Assembly: GCA_017553685.1 (NCBI GenBank)
Contig: JAFZKH010000004.1
Span: forward strand, 1 to 64,000
From: Bacilli bacterium
GTDB lineage: Bacteria > Bacillota_I > Bacilli_A > RF39 > UBA660
DNA length: 64,000 nucleotides
Direction of reading: 5' to 3'
This document shows positions 10,976 to 56,989 of this stretch, piece after piece (positions within the stretch are counted from its first letter, which is position 1; the number at the start of each line of letters is the position of its first letter). The position numbers were made by a program, and so were the translations under genes. The notes under the pieces were generated by a model that was not told the origin of the DNA, did not search any database, and worked only from the letters and a program-made list of their open reading frames with translations.

Positions 10976-11006
10976 GAAAAAGAAGAGTTATACTCTTCTT
11001 TTTTTC
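10976..11006 (-). terminator. intrinsic terminator
   Basis: An AAGAAGAGT/ACTCTTCTT stem with A/T runs includes the end of the 10988-11686 gene. Confidence 0.8.
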
Positions 11007-11686
11007 TTTAAAGTTTTAACTAAAACTTTAGCAGATTCTATATCATTCTTAGTAATATCAGTTTTACCTACATTTTCAAATAAGCCTCTTGCATCTGCAT
11101 CAACTGTTGTAGCTAGTCCAGCCATTAACATAGCACCACCTATCAAAAAATATGCACTATAGTATGAGTATTCTTGACTAGGATCCTCATATTCTTTATC
11201 AGTTTTATTATAAATAGTATAGTATGCATATACATCGTCTAAATCTAAATAAGTATTATCTACTTCATATCCCATATCACTAGGTTCACCTAGCATAGCT
11301 TCTAAACTATCACTATTTGCATTTAAGAAAATAGTTTCATCAATCTTATCATTATAATAAGTATTATATGTTTTAATATATCCTTCATCTGATTCTAAAC
11401 AACTATTATATAATTTTACTGAATTAGAATGTACATCAGGTGTTAATTCACTGGATATTTCATTACCATTATTATCTAATACTTTCTTTTCATAATAATA
11501 TCTTCTAGTTGCTTCTTTACCAATGTTTAAAAAGTATCCTCCAACAGCAGCTACTGCAGTTGCAGGTGCTATAAAAAATATCATTTTTAATGCTATCTTT
11601 TTTGTTTTAGCTATAGCACTTTTTGTACTAATTTGAAATAAATCCTTTCTAGCTTCTTTTAGTTCTTTTTTAATTTCTTTTCCCAT
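10988..11686 (-). CDS. unknown two-segment membrane protein under a Mn2+ riboswitch
   Basis: A 232-residue protein of no family I recognise. A basic N-terminus (about 1-33) precedes a hydrophobic segment at about 34-55. A loop of roughly 120 residues is rich in Asp, Glu and Tyr (for example DLDDVYAYYTIYNK), then a second hydrophobic segment near 178-198, and a basic tail ending KTLKKKRRV. Both termini are probably cytoplasmic and the acidic loop outside. GGAGGAGG places the start at ATG 11686. It is the only gene between the riboswitch at 11719-11842 and its terminator, so its expression should follow Mn2+. It lacks the helices of MntP, TerC/YoaB or P-type ATPases usually found behind this riboswitch. 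A metal or envelope-stress role is inference. Confidence 0.75.
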   Translation of the reverse strand: MGKEIKKELKEARKDLFQISTKSAIAKTKKIALKMIFFIAPATAVAAVGGYFLNIGKEATRRYYYEKKVLDNNGNEISSELTPDVHSNSVKLYNSCLESDEGYIKTYNTYYNDKIDETIFLNANSDSLEAMLGEPSDMGYEVDNTYLDLDDVYAYYTIYNKTDKEYEDPSQEYSYYSAYFLIGGAMLMAGLATTVDADARGLFENVGKTDITKNDIESAKVLVKTLKKKRRV

Positions 11687-11718: not shown

Positions 11719-11842
11719 AAAAAAAGACCCACATAATTAAATATTATGTGAAAGTCTTGTTCTTTATATATATTTTGTTTCCGAATTTTACTTGTGCTGA
11801 CGAAAACAAATTACTTCATAGAAGTAGAACTACTCCCTTTCA
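11719..11842 (-). ncRNA. yybP-ykoY type Mn2+ riboswitch with terminator
   Basis: On the minus strand the leader opens with GAAAGGGAGTAG (11841-11830) and closes with AACAAGACTTTC (11761-11750); these pair as P1 (GAAAG/CTTTC) and a second short helix (GTTC/GAAC). The other arm is a stem TTTGTTTTC/GGAAACAAA enclosing CGTCA and CGG. This is the GGGGAGUAG / CGUCA-CCGG / CAAGAC pattern of the Mn2+-sensing yybP-ykoY class. The 3' P1 strand doubles as the 5' arm of a GAC..GTC terminator with a T run (11756-11719). Ligand-stabilised P1 should therefore prevent termination (an ON switch). Confidence 0.8.
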
Positions 11843-31951: not shown

Positions 31952-31965
31952 GACAAAGCACCTCC

Positions 31966-32088
31966 AATAAAAAAGTAGATACATCTGTATCTACCTAAAA
32001 AGCACTATAATTAATATTATTGGCCTTTTACCTATCGCTTTAAGCAATCAGGTGAGATACAAATCTTCTTTCCTTTTTTCAAAACTAC
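31966..32088 (-). ncRNA. L20-type leader (attenuator) of infC-rpmI-rplT
   Basis: About 120 bases between the promoter and infC. A stem ACCTGATTGC/GCGATAGGT lies centrally (32055-32027), followed by AGGTAAAAGGCC and a strong GTAGATAC/GTATCTAC stem with T6 (31994-31966) as terminator. The position and layout match the Firmicute L20 leader family, in which L20 binding favours the terminator. The exact Rfam match was not checked. Confidence 0.72.
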
Positions 32089-49720: not shown

Positions 49721-49752
49721 AATAAAAAAGAATAGATTTATCTATTCTTTTC
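49721..49752 (-). terminator. terminator of the zur-znuCB-trxAB operon
   Basis: An AAAGAATAGAT/ATCTATTCTTT stem spans the trxB stop at 49738. Confidence 0.85.
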
Positions 49753-50613
49753 TATATATTTTATTGCTTCTGTTGCTGCTATAGCTCCATCAGATGCAGC
49801 AGTAACTAATTGTCTTAAATCTTTCTTGCAACAATCTCCTGCAGCAAATATTCCATCTAAATTTGTATGAGTATTATTTGAGATAATATAACCTCTATCA
49901 TCTAGTTCTATTACAGATTCAAATTCTTCACTAGATGTTTCATATCCTATAGATACAAATAATCCATCTACTTTAATATTTTTAGAATCATTAGAACTCT
50001 TTATATCAATACTTTCTATATTATCTTTTGAATTAATTTTATCCACAGAATAATTAGTTATTACTTCTATATTCTTTTTATTCACTTCTTCTTCTAGATT
50101 TTTTCTAGATATTAAATATACTTTAGAAGCAATATCTGATAAATAAATAGCATCTTCTATAGCAGATTTTCCTCCACCTACTACTGCTACTACTTTATCT
50201 TTATAGAAGTTACCATCACAAGTAGCACAGTAAGATACTCCTTTACCTACTAATTCTTTTTCACCAGGAATATTTAGACTTCTTCTATCAAGACCTGTTG
50301 CAATAATAATTGCTTTACAACTATATTCATGTTTATCTGTTATTACTTTTTTATTAATACCATTTTGAATACTTTCAGCATTTTCAAAAACTAGTTCCGC
50401 TCCTAAAGAAGTTGCTTGAACATATAAGTTAGTAGCTAAATCTACACCAGATATATCTAGAAATCCTGGATAATTCTTTACATGAGGAGCACTTATTATT
50501 CTTCCACCATAGTTTTGTTTTTCTATTATTAAAACCTTTTTATTAGCTCTAGATGCATATATGGCAGCAGTTAATCCTGCTATACCTGCTCCTATAATAA
50601 CAATATCATACAT
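49738..50613 (-). CDS. trxB: thioredoxin reductase
   Basis: A 291-residue NADPH/FAD enzyme. FAD site IIGAGIAGLTAAIYASRANK, redox motif SYCATCDGNFYKDK (CATC), NADPH site VVGGGKSAIEDAIYLS, and DGIFAAGDCCKKDLRQL are all present. About 20 residues shorter than the E. coli enzyme but complete. It lies three bases beyond the trxA stop and closes the metal-uptake operon, so it is probably co-expressed with trxA from that transcript. Confidence 0.94.
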   Translation of the reverse strand: MYDIVIIGAGIAGLTAAIYASRANKKVLIIEKQNYGGRIISAPHVKNYPGFLDISGVDLATNLYVQATSLGAELVFENAESIQNGINKKVITDKHEYSCKAIIIATGLDRRSLNIPGEKELVGKGVSYCATCDGNFYKDKVVAVVGGGKSAIEDAIYLSDIASKVYLISRKNLEEEVNKKNIEVITNYSVDKINSKDNIESIDIKSSNDSKNIKVDGLFVSIGYETSSEEFESVIELDDRGYIISNNTHTNLDGIFAAGDCCKKDLRQLVTAASDGAIAATEAIKYIEKNR

Positions 50614-50616
50614 AGG

Positions 50617-50919
50617 TTATTCCTCGAATAAACTTTCTATTTCATTTATAGGAATTAATCCTACACTTCTTTTAACTTCTTTACCATTTTCAAATAGAAT
50701 TAAACAAGGAATTGAAGATATATTATATTTAATAGCTATATCTCTATCATTATCAACATCAATAGCTACTATTTTCTTTCCATTAGCAGCCACTTGATCC
50801 AATACAGGTTTAAGCATTCTACAAGGACCACACCAAGTAGCATTAAAGTCTACTAACACTTTTCCTTCATAGTTTAAAACTTCTTTTTCAAATATTTCGT
50901 TATTACCTTCTATTACCAT
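50617..50919 (-). CDS. trxA: thioredoxin
   Basis: A 100-residue thioredoxin with active site NATWCGPCRMLKP (WCGPC) and the cis-Pro segment NISSIPCLILFENG. ATG 50919 fits GGAGGG upstream; an earlier in-frame ATG overlaps the SD. It lies between znuB (16-base gap) and trxB, so the two redox genes form the tail of the Zur-like operon. Confidence 0.93.
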   Translation of the reverse strand: MVIEGNNEIFEKEVLNYEGKVLVDFNATWCGPCRMLKPVLDQVAANGKKIVAIDVDNDRDIAIKYNISSIPCLILFENGKEVKRSVGLIPINEIESLFEE

Positions 50920-50935
50920 AATACCCTCCATATAA

Positions 50936-51745
50936 TTATTTTATCATACTTATTATTTTTACTACTATAAATAATATAATATTTACAATTACTACTGTAG
51001 CTCCTGTTGGAGTACTAAATACATATGATAATATTAAACCTATTATAAATGTTAGTATTGAAATAATAACACTAGATATTACAACACTCTTAAACTTTTT
51101 AAATAATTGCATAGATATTAATGCTGGGAATATTATTAAACTAGATATTAAAAGTGATCCCATTAATCTCATACCTACAACTACTACTAAAGAACATAGT
51201 ATTGCAAATATAGCATTATATACATTAGTTTTAATACCTATTGATTTAGAGAATGTCTCATCAAATGTAATAGCAAATATCTTATTATAAAATACTAAAT
51301 ATAAGAATAATACTACTACTGTAAGAATAATACTAACTATTACATCAATTGTATCTACTCCCAAAATAGATCCAAATAAATAATTATTAATATCAATATT
51401 AACTCCTTTAGTAATAGATATTAAGAAAGTACCTATTGCAAGTGATGATGCACTAACAAGTGCAATCATAGAATCACCATGTACTTTATTATTTGTATTT
51501 AATCTAAGTATTAAAAATGATACTATTACTACAATAGGAATAGAAAAATAAAGTGGTGCTACATGCAGAATAGTAGCTAATGCAAAAGTCATAAATGCTA
51601 CATGTGATAAACCATCACCTATCATAGAATTCTTTCTAAGAACAGTAGATACTCCAATTAAAGATGCACATAAAGAAATAAGTACACCTACAATTAAAGC
51701 TTTAATCATAAATGAATATGAAAACATTTCTATTATATTACTCAT
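50936..51745 (-). CDS. metal (Zn/Mn) ABC transporter permease
   Basis: A 269-residue permease of the ZnuB/MntB/TroC family with about eight helices. GVLISLCASLIGVSTVLRKN near 20-38, MIGDGLSHVAFMTFALATIL and MRLMGSLLISSLIIFPAL are the family blocks. It forms a complex with the ATPase encoded upstream (eight-base overlap). No substrate-binding protein gene (ZnuA/TroA) is present nearby, so that subunit must be elsewhere or absent. Confidence 0.9.
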   Translation of the reverse strand: MSNIIEMFSYSFMIKALIVGVLISLCASLIGVSTVLRKNSMIGDGLSHVAFMTFALATILHVAPLYFSIPIVVIVSFLILRLNTNNKVHGDSMIALVSASSLAIGTFLISITKGVNIDINNYLFGSILGVDTIDVIVSIILTVVVLFLYLVFYNKIFAITFDETFSKSIGIKTNVYNAIFAILCSLVVVVGMRLMGSLLISSLIIFPALISMQLFKKFKSVVISSVIISILTFIIGLILSYVFSTPTGATVVIVNIILFIVVKIISMIK

Positions 51746-52409
51746 GATGTACTCTCCTTACAAATTCCTCTGTAGAACTAGATATAACTGTTCCATCAGT
51801 AATTTGAATTATTTTATTACCTATTAAATTATCATGATCTAAATCATGAGTAATCATAATAATAGTTATATTATGTTTTGTATTTAATTCTGTAATTATC
51901 TTGTATAAATCTTTTTTAGATTCTATATCTAAATTATTAGATGGTTCATCTAATATTAATAATTTTTCAGTAGAACATAAAGATCTAGCAAGTAATACTT
52001 TTTGTCTTTGTCCACCAGATAATTCTTGAAAAGATTTATCCTTCAAATTACTAATACCTAGTAATTTTAAATTATCTAATGCTAGTTTCTTTTCTTTTTT
52101 AGTATAGAATAAAGTCTTATTTAAAGTACCTGATAAAACTATTTCATATACTGATGCTGGAAAGTTAGAATCTACTTTTGTTTCTTGAGGCATATAACCT
52201 ATAAATTCTTGTTTTAAACTATTAAATGTAATAGAACCACTAACAGGTTTAACAAGTCCAAGTAATGCTTTGATTAAAGTAGTTTTACCTGCTCCATTAG
52301 ATCCTACTACTATAACAAATTCTCCATCATCAATAGAAAAATTAACTTTATCTAATACAGTATGTCCTTCATAACCAATTTTTAAATCTTTAACTTCTAT
52401 TAAACTCAT
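51738..52409 (-). CDS. metal ABC transporter ATP-binding protein
   Basis: A 223-residue ATPase. Walker A is VVGSNGAGKTTLIKALLG, the signature FQELSGGQRQKVLLARSL, Walker B KLLILDEPSNNLD and the H-loop MITHDLDHD. The family is ZnuC/MntA-like by its permease partner. It overlaps the regulator by four bases and the permease by eight, so the three are coupled and co-regulated. Confidence 0.93.
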   Translation of the reverse strand: MSLIEVKDLKIGYEGHTVLDKVNFSIDDGEFVIVVGSNGAGKTTLIKALLGLVKPVSGSITFNSLKQEFIGYMPQETKVDSNFPASVYEIVLSGTLNKTLFYTKKEKKLALDNLKLLGISNLKDKSFQELSGGQRQKVLLARSLCSTEKLLILDEPSNNLDIESKKDLYKIITELNTKHNITIIMITHDLDHDNLIGNKIIQITDGTVISSSTEEFVRRVHHE

Positions 52410-52795
52410 ACTCTAACCCCTTTTGTGCATTTCTTACATTCACCGTTAATAATAATGTGTTCTTTACTAATAATAAAACCATGTTCTTCTAAAATATGTT
52501 TAGATAATTTATCTGCATAATCACAATCTACATGGTAAAGCATTCCACATTTATTACACTTTAAATAAAAATGATTTTCCTTCTCACATTTACCAGTATA
52601 ATGATATATTGCAGTATTATCATTACCTACTTTTGTAATACATCCATCTTCTTCTAGTTTATTAACTAATCTATAGATTGTAGTTAATCCTACATCACTA
52701 CCTAATAAATTATGTATATCTTTAATTGTAAAATCTTTTTCTAATTTAGAAATCTTATCTAATATAATATCTTTTTGTTTAGTATTATATGTCAT
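52406..52795 (-). CDS. Fur-family metalloregulator (Zur-like)
   Basis: A 129-residue Fur-fold repressor. The winged helix contains FTIKDIHNLLGSDVGLTTIY with RLVNKLEEDG; the metal half has ENHFYLKCNKCGMLYHVDCD and GECKKC, giving the structural CxxC pairs and His ligands. Gene context (Zn/Mn uptake) favours Zur. ATG 52795 fits AGGTGAGA upstream; an upstream GTG overlaps the SD. A 7-3-7 palindrome between -10 and the start (52811-52827) is its probable autoregulatory operator. Confidence 0.88.
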   Translation of the reverse strand: MTYNTKQKDIILDKISKLEKDFTIKDIHNLLGSDVGLTTIYRLVNKLEEDGCITKVGNDNTAIYHYTGKCEKENHFYLKCNKCGMLYHVDCDYADKLSKHILEEHGFIISKEHIIINGECKKCTKGVRV

Positions 52796-52810
52796 TATTC
52801 TCACCTCAAT

Positions 52811-56085: not shown

Positions 56086-56118
56086 ATAAAAAGACTAGAT
56101 TTCTCTAGTCTTTTTTAA
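56086..56118 (-). terminator. intrinsic terminator
   Basis: An AAAGACTAGA/TCTAGTCTTT stem spans the stop at 56115. Confidence 0.85.
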
Positions 56119-56810
56119 TTGTTCTTTGCTAATGTTTTTGTTTTAATAGGAGTTCCAAATGAAGTATATCCTTTTTCTTCTTTTATGCATTCTACAGGAA
56201 CAGTATTACGATAAATAATATATCCTCCTGCATATAAGTAAGCTCTACCTTCTACAGCATAATCTATTCCAATAATTTCATATCCAGGAACATTTGAATA
56301 TTGAACATTTTCACTATCTGGATTTGATATTGGTTTTAAAATTACATGTTCTCCAACTTCAAATCTTTTCTTGCCATTATTTTCATTATATGAATAATCT
56401 ATATTTTCTGGTCTTCCAAAATTTGTATAAACATATTCATTATCTTTTGTTTTACCAGTTGGAACGCAATATACATAATCTGTATTTTCATATAGGATAC
56501 ATCCTTGATATCCTTCCATAGATACACCAATAATTCTATATCCTTCTTGAGAAGGTAATTGAATAGTATCTTCAGTGTTATATGTAAAGAAACTTGAATC
56601 TGGTTTATCCATAGTAACAGATAATACATGTTCTCCAGGAGCAAATTCTCTTTCACCAGATACCTCTTCTATTCTTTGATCATTTCTAACAGATACTACA
56701 TCATTATATACTTTACCATCGCAACCTTTAACACAAGCATATAAAATTATAGTACCTACTAATATTCCTCCTTTTAAAATTACATATTCTTTTGAAACTT
56801 CTCTTCCCAT
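56115..56810 (-). CDS. unknown N-anchored exported protein under a Mn2+ riboswitch
   Basis: A 231-residue protein. A hydrophobic helix at about 10-27 ends at ILYACVKGC, which could be a lipobox-like or disulfide site. The outside part has two similar units: FAPGEHVLSV near 58-67 with GYRIIGVSMEG and YENTDYVYCVPTG, then FEVGEHVILKP near 150-160 with GYEIIGIDYAVEG, YRNTVPVECI. This internal duplication (about 95 residues each) is not a family I know. GGAGGTGATTATT places ATG at 56810; upstream frame lies in the riboswitch. Regulation by Mn2+ is predicted. Confidence 0.75.
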   Translation of the reverse strand: MGREVSKEYVILKGGILVGTIILYACVKGCDGKVYNDVVSVRNDQRIEEVSGEREFAPGEHVLSVTMDKPDSSFFTYNTEDTIQLPSQEGYRIIGVSMEGYQGCILYENTDYVYCVPTGKTKDNEYVYTNFGRPENIDYSYNENNGKKRFEVGEHVILKPISNPDSENVQYSNVPGYEIIGIDYAVEGRAYLYAGGYIIYRNTVPVECIKEEKGYTSFGTPIKTKTLAKNN

Positions 56811-56841
56811 AATAATCACCTCCACTACTATGTGAAGGCGG

Positions 56842-56953
56842 AAAAAAAGACCTTCACATAAATGTGAAAGTCTTGTCCAAATATACACTATTTTTATTGT
56901 ACGGATAACCGTCTTGACGTACAATAACATTTAAGGACTACTCCCTCTCAAAC
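56842..56953 (-). ncRNA. second yybP-ykoY type Mn2+ riboswitch with terminator
   Basis: On the minus strand GAGAGGGAGTAGTCC (56949-56935) pairs with GGACAAGACTTTC (56879-56867). GAGAG/CTTTC form P1, TCC/GGA form the next helix, and a TTATTGTAC/GTACAATAA stem encloses CGTCAAGACGGTTATC. Compared with the riboswitch at 11719-11842 the second helix has covaried (TTC/GAA versus TCC/GGA) while GGGAGTAG, CGTCA and ACAAGAC stay. The 3' P1 strand again begins a GACTTTCACAT terminator (56872-56842), predicting an ON switch. Confidence 0.82.
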
Positions 56954-56960
56954 TGTTATA

Positions 56961-56989
56961 ATTATACCATATTTTGGCGATTTTGTCAA
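56961..56989 (-). promoter_or_regulatory. consensus promoter of the second riboswitch
   Basis: On the minus strand TTGACA (56989-56984), 17-base spacer, TATAAT (56966-56961), both perfect. Confidence 0.9.

Follow-up and report, generated by a model that had tools for sequence, protein, structure and literature searches.

The 64,000-nucleotide stretch of DNA analysed here (the window) contains a leader which, judging from its sequence and from its relatives, is probably a divergent Mn2+ riboswitch of the yybP-ykoY type, acting as a transcriptional ON switch for one gene, whose product is a surface-anchored protein containing two GEH units (rough probability 0.78). Formally, the leader is not a member of the Rfam family RF00080, whose gathering cut-off it does not reach and whose junction it has in reduced form. 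Nevertheless, it is homologous to that class, and its mode of action is very probably the same.

The features are listed in Table 1. The original prediction had described a leader present in two copies, each in front of a different protein, and a perfect promoter; these points were borne out. The promoter of copy 2 is of the sigma-A type; it lies directly after the stop codon (56999) of the upstream gene and is kept in the sister species (G002). The ordered core of copy 2 consists of GGGAGUAG, CGUCA and CAAGA, and the GGGGAGUAG-like L1 loop has CAAGA on the opposite strand. The CUUUC stretch (56870-56866) is common to the 3' strand of P1.1 and to arm A of the intrinsic terminator, and the Shine-Dalgarno (SD) sequence and the ATG follow downstream of this terminator. 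Copy 2 has no P2 hairpin, its fourth arm can be closed just by a weak 5-bp A-U hairpin, and the four-way junction, with P2 and P4 besides P1 and P3, is reduced. Its subclass, in which GUCCUUAAAUGU follows L1, also includes the loci L008, L020, L026, L043, L088, L114 and others; in other members of the lineage both the P2 and the P4 arm are present. The covarying helix of the original prediction is P1, where the two copies differ on both strands. The proteins behind the two copies are unrelated to each other and their functions are not known, as had been claimed. Both begin alike, with MGKEIKKE (11686-11660) and MGREVSKE (56810-56785), and the leader may have travelled together with the first codons.

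Table 1. Features of the two leader copies and their genes in the window.
Feature	Position	Strand	Remarks
Copy 1 gene	10988..11686	-	membrane protein of 232 aa, function unknown; unrelated to the GEH protein
Copy 1 aptamer	11749..11842	-	same aptamer type; P2 hairpin UACUUC/GAAGUA; P1 GUUC/GAAC; R2 73.0 bits
Terminator after GEH gene	56089..56118	-	AAAAAGACTAG...CTAGTCTTTTT, directly after the gene; read from sequence; conserved in G002
GEH gene	56115..56810	-	231-aa N-anchored, predicted extracytoplasmic protein, two GEH units; monocistronic; ATG 56810 after SD
Elements C and D	56819..56839	-	C, GCCUUCACAU, 56839-56830, complements arm B; D, GUGGAGG, contains SD GGAGG (56823-56819) and complements C
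Copy 2 terminator	56842..56872	-	arm A GACUUUCACAU 56872-56862; arm B AUGUGAAGGUC 56859-56849; U7 56848-56842; hairpin -12.7 kcal/mol
Copy 2 aptamer	56865..56950	-	divergent yybP-ykoY (Mn2+) type (predicted); R2 68.7 bits, E=6e-13 in whole genome; pair counts
P1.1	56949-56945 / 56870-56866	-	GAGAG/CUUUC
L1	56945-56938	-	GGGAGUAG
P1	56938-56935 / 56878-56875	-	GUCC/GGAC
P3	56927-56918 / 56903-56894	-	UUAUUGUACG/CGUACAAUAA
L3	56917-56915	-	UCA; predicted Mn-sensing adenosine A56915, position by PMC6754395
CAAGA	56875-56871	-	
Copy 2 promoter	56961..56989	-	TTGACA 56989-56984, 17-nt spacer, TATAAT 56966-56961; exact match, read from sequence

The Rfam model failed throughout this lineage. RF00080 gave no match in the window, the short leader, 14 lineage loci, the genome from which the window comes or 193 genomes of the family, and on 231 bases around the leader there was none even at E values up to 10. 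A search for further RF00080 copies in the genome, as the original prediction had proposed, thus matched none. However, RF00080 also misses the leaders of P2A-type ATPases and CaCA exchangers in Ruminococcus bromii, Anaerococcus and Amedibacillus (L058, L052, L051), and its failure on copy 2 is therefore best read as an insensitivity of the model. Pattern searches in genomes of the family and of GTDB recovered many leaders built alike. From 39 lineage leaders we aligned P1.1, P1, P3 and P4 and built a covariance model, R1, which found 31 matches in 24 of 291 family genomes. The weakest of these, with 29 bits in G208, falls within a coding sequence and probably arose by chance. R1 matched all 82 outgroup and lineage loci; it rejected the ten or so strict-pattern matches in coding sequences (L011-L014, L016, L018, L019, L025, L027, L034), which were dismissed as chance. 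The Mn2+ assignment of the original prediction is thus supported by the core, by the covariation and by the ability of R1 to find mntP, while the fit to RF00080 fails.

Some observations were made on the way. RF02617 (SSRC10, 'Streptococcus sRNA 10') scores better than RF00080 on the leaders L113:4217-4304 (40.2 bits), L032, L029 and L058. Its consensus contains CGUCA and AGCgaGaC, and SSRC10 is therefore probably a fragment of a Mn2+ riboswitch that was catalogued as an sRNA. In 2.9 million viral contigs the sole match, L158:9945-10037, precedes a P-type ATPase and may represent host DNA within a provirus contig. Elsewhere in the window, the L20 leader (RF00558) at 31961-32076 scored 43.6 bits and did not reach its cut-off of 58.7.

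The genes behind the leader in relatives link it to metals as well as to proteins without known function. Six genomes from three genera (G000, G002, G008, G240, G247 with leader L054, and G339) have the GEH gene immediately downstream of the leader, and the leader of G008, which was outside the training set, scores 70.3 bits. With about 15 GEH genes and 31 leaders in some 240-290 genomes, we infer that these coincidences are not due to chance; most other GEH relatives are without the leader. In the same family, predicted P2A-type ATPases (L179, L188) and predicted CaCA exchangers (L178, L180, L181) follow the leader. Both classes of pump are the same as in Clostridia, which suggests that the link to metal persists within the lineage. 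SPFH/Band 7 proteins were found behind L259, in the same genus, and behind L171, an NfeD protein behind L031, with a gap, and nucleoside 2-deoxyribosyltransferase-like proteins behind L020 and L167. Leader L029:1495-1578 directly precedes a gene whose product has an S-adenosylmethionine decarboxylase domain (E 5e-18), and further orphan proteins follow the leader in the family. The names of the P2A ATPases, CaCA exchangers and SPFH proteins at L171, L178-L181, L188 and L259 come from reading their sequences beside the Clostridial ones.

Two recurrent associations stood out. In several genera, lipoproteins with a conserved C.I....HAHKY motif lie right behind the leader (L169, L172, L173, L175), and the residues of this motif are possible metal ligands. 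Membrane proteins of the SPFH/Band 7 and NfeD types occur repeatedly after leaders of the yybP-ykoY type, in both Clostridia and Bacilli (L038, L113, L171, L259, L068, L071, L031); our literature search returned no paper linking yybP-ykoY with SPFH proteins.

Since the downstream genes in the lineage are very diverse, the ligand could be another one. The leader would then be a yybP variant that has drifted to a different divalent metal or condition, and the orphan surface genes would belong to that signal. Reviewers of the class anticipate such variants, as some of the associated genes are hard to reconcile with Mn2+ (PMC7266159), and the miss by RF00080 as well as the reduced junction of copy 2 are consistent with this. 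However, no change is seen in the parts that coordinate Mn2+ through phosphates and the adenosine N7, namely the L1 loop and the UCA of L3. The N7 of an invariant L3 adenosine touches the Mn2+ in Lactococcus lactis (A41) and Xanthomonas oryzae (A48) (PMC6754395), and its counterpart in copy 2 is A56915. Together with the predicted Ca/Mn pumps behind the leader in the same family, this makes a change of ligand unlikely, and we favour Mn2+ as the ligand.

Could the leader have decayed from a riboswitch, retaining the fold but now serving as a constitutive or non-metal attenuator? The patchy distribution, with the leader in so few of the family genomes, would fit. The covariation argues against it: in the 39 leaders 92.5% of the cells are paired, with 95 double changes, and 14 of 20 pairs contain double changes. 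None of 500 shuffles was as good, and slid registers were much worse. P1 is paired in 100% of cells, with UA to CG swaps, compared with 92.8% in P1.1 and 91.5% in P3; double changes occur in two pairs of P1.1, three of P1 and seven of P3. The motifs GGGAGUAG, CGUCA and CAAGA, by which the leaders were sought, are not independent evidence here, and most of the helices lie outside them. Moreover, the overlap between terminator and P1.1 is kept in almost all leaders, and those of the sister species are about 93-95% identical, with the differences in loop positions or as G-U wobbles. We therefore consider decay very improbable.

Our second covariance model, R2, was trained without either copy from the window. 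It gave copy 1 73.0 bits and copy 2 68.7 bits, and the next best match in the genome had 18.6 bits. A tight pattern of the core had one exact match in the window and none in 100 shuffles, while a slightly looser one had exactly two matches in the 950-kb genome, both within the window, and none in the reversed control. Although RF00080 finds nothing, a chance resemblance in A+T-rich leader DNA, unrelated to yybP-ykoY, is already refuted by the held-out R2 score, and the empty controls also speak against it.

Before the SD of copy 2 lies element C, which is complementary to arm B of the terminator. The B:C duplex is better than in 200 of 200 shuffles (z -5.7), and that of copy 1 also beats all 200. 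Among 54 lineage leaders, some of which are closely related to each other and not all independent, the duplex is significant in 17, with fewer than one expected; a duplex counted as significant when no more than 2 of 200 dinucleotide-shuffled versions of the downstream stretch did as well or better. We propose that B:C is an added antiterminator. The C:D hairpin of copy 2 has -14.0 kcal/mol. In some relatives the computed access to the SD rises when B is free, from 0.02 to 0.37 in L023, from 0.13 to 0.71 in L048 and from 0.29 to 0.98 in L039. When copy 2 is folded together with its coding start, the SD is not clearly freed in the ON state and the folds are ambiguous. A clean dual switch of terminator and SD in copy 2 is at most possible, as the free-energy folds with and without the coding start disagree. 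The modelled link between element C and exposure of the SD is only suggestive.

The GEH protein has a single N-terminal hydrophobic helix and contains the GEH...GY.IIG unit twice, at about residues 52-135 and 146-224, in agreement with the original prediction of an N-anchored protein with an internal duplication. An HMM of the unit, which includes these two units, finds both domains with E=3e-61. In the beta unit of about 80 residues, the His of GEH is invariant and the motifs GY, Y.N and FG are conserved. A reading of the gene as a 271-aa ORF was rejected, because that ORF starts inside the leader; the ORF after the SD has 231 aa. Sequence searches of the GEH protein against Pfam, NCBIfam and PDB gave no usable relative, and a match to a DNA topoisomerase (E=0.02) was dropped as weak. 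AlphaFold2 models had a pLDDT of 74 for the whole protein and of 82 for one unit. The structural prediction of the unit, also proposed originally, led to no known fold: Foldseek returned no match in PDB for either model (E of at least 0.05, TM about 0.15-0.25). Relatives of the GEH protein are lipoproteins or membrane-anchored proteins with at least one unit each, scattered over genera of the family in 13 of 243 genomes. The dN/dS of the ectodomain against the sister species is 0.095, and the GEH gene is therefore functional. In the same comparison (L004) the anchor (the first ~33 codons, 56708-56810) is replaced, while the leader and the ectodomain are 88-95% identical. The gene is closed by its own terminator and is therefore a single-gene unit.

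In the genome from which the window comes, tblastn searches for the canonical Mn genes detected no TerC, MntP, CaCA or SPFH gene, with a positive control that worked, and no P-type ATPase was found; as the genome is 94.7% complete, these absences are not absolute. Its one CDF transporter gene is not preceded by the leader. At 49738-52804, some 4 kb away from copy 2, genes for a Fur-family regulator, an ABC metal importer (ZnuCB-like), a thioredoxin and a thioredoxin reductase stand in a row, as identified from their ORFs only.

We propose the following mechanism for copy 2. Transcription would start about 6-8 nt after the TATAAT. By homology to the riboswitches of L. lactis and X. oryzae, in excess Mn2+ L1 (GGGAGUAG) and the UCA of L3 would come together at the metal ion, and P1.1, a weak switch helix, would close. 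P1.1 would thereby take the CUUUC strand that the terminator needs, and the polymerase would read through, a direction likewise suggested by homology. Without metal, the hairpin A:B would form and transcription would terminate. The freed arm B could pair with element C, which would disfavour the terminator and may keep C off the SD; here the complementarity is observed and from it we infer the role. The GEH protein would then be made and remain anchored, with both of its beta units lying outside the cytoplasm. Its own part is less certain: it may belong to an envelope-side response to Mn2+ excess, binding the metal or supporting envelope proteins, which we regard as possible but tentative.

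The leader in front of surface proteins without known function and, in relatives, in front of metal pumps points to a manganese response that nobody has described. The idea of an uncharacterised regulon in this lineage is thus strengthened by the relatives, although the genome itself holds just two copies. More speculatively still, a lineage of uncultured Bacillota with tiny genomes may have taken the Mn2+ riboswitch away from metal exporters and placed it before new families of extracytoplasmic proteins (those with GEH units, HAHKY lipoproteins, SPFH proteins and others), which would make up an envelope-side response to Mn2+ excess. The GEH unit would then be a new exported metal-handling domain, and the added antiterminator would couple termination to access of the SD. 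How Mn2+ excess is handled in a 0.95-Mb genome apparently without P-type ATPases, MntP and TerC is a question raised by these data, and the genes that recur behind the leader give a testable entry to proteins of no known function. Because the Rfam Mn2+ model sees nothing in this family (0 of 193 genomes, whereas the model made here has matches in 24 of 291), riboswitch censuses overlook this branch.

Judged by sequence, the leader is homologous to the Mn2+ riboswitches: the core is common to both, the structure covaries, and the mntP leader is found by a lineage model. In E. coli, the mntP and alx riboswitches control Mn exporters. They share the core, and R1 finds them: the mntP leader of K-12 scored 22.6 bits (E=9e-4) and the alx leader 12.5 bits (E=0.19), each at the top of its stretch, the latter weakly. 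Both E. coli riboswitches act on translation (PMC11647493). The leaders of TerC, P2A ATPase, CaCA and SPFH genes in Clostridia and Rhodanobacter have the aptamer found by R1 and, in most cases, a terminator starting with GACUUU; the Rhodanobacter TerC leader scores 42 bits with R1, and RF00080 also matches there, sub-threshold (30.6 bits, cut-off 45). They differ from our lineage in mostly being without an antiterminator-like element C, which is significant in 1 of 11, compared with 17 of 54. The closest likeness in mechanism may be to the transcriptional yybP-ykoY riboswitch of L. lactis (RF00080), where Mn2+ stabilises P1.1 and the overlapping terminator is stopped (PMC11087558). Copy 2 shares with it the L1 loop GGGAGUAG, the CGUCA of L3 with the Mn-contacting adenosine, CAAGA, the helices P1.1, P1, P3 and P4, and the intrinsic terminator overlapping the 3' strand of P1.1. 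In contrast to the L. lactis type, copy 2 is without P2 (GUCCUUAAAUGU subclass), does not match RF00080, precedes a gene that is not a transporter and has an element complementary to a terminator arm before the SD.
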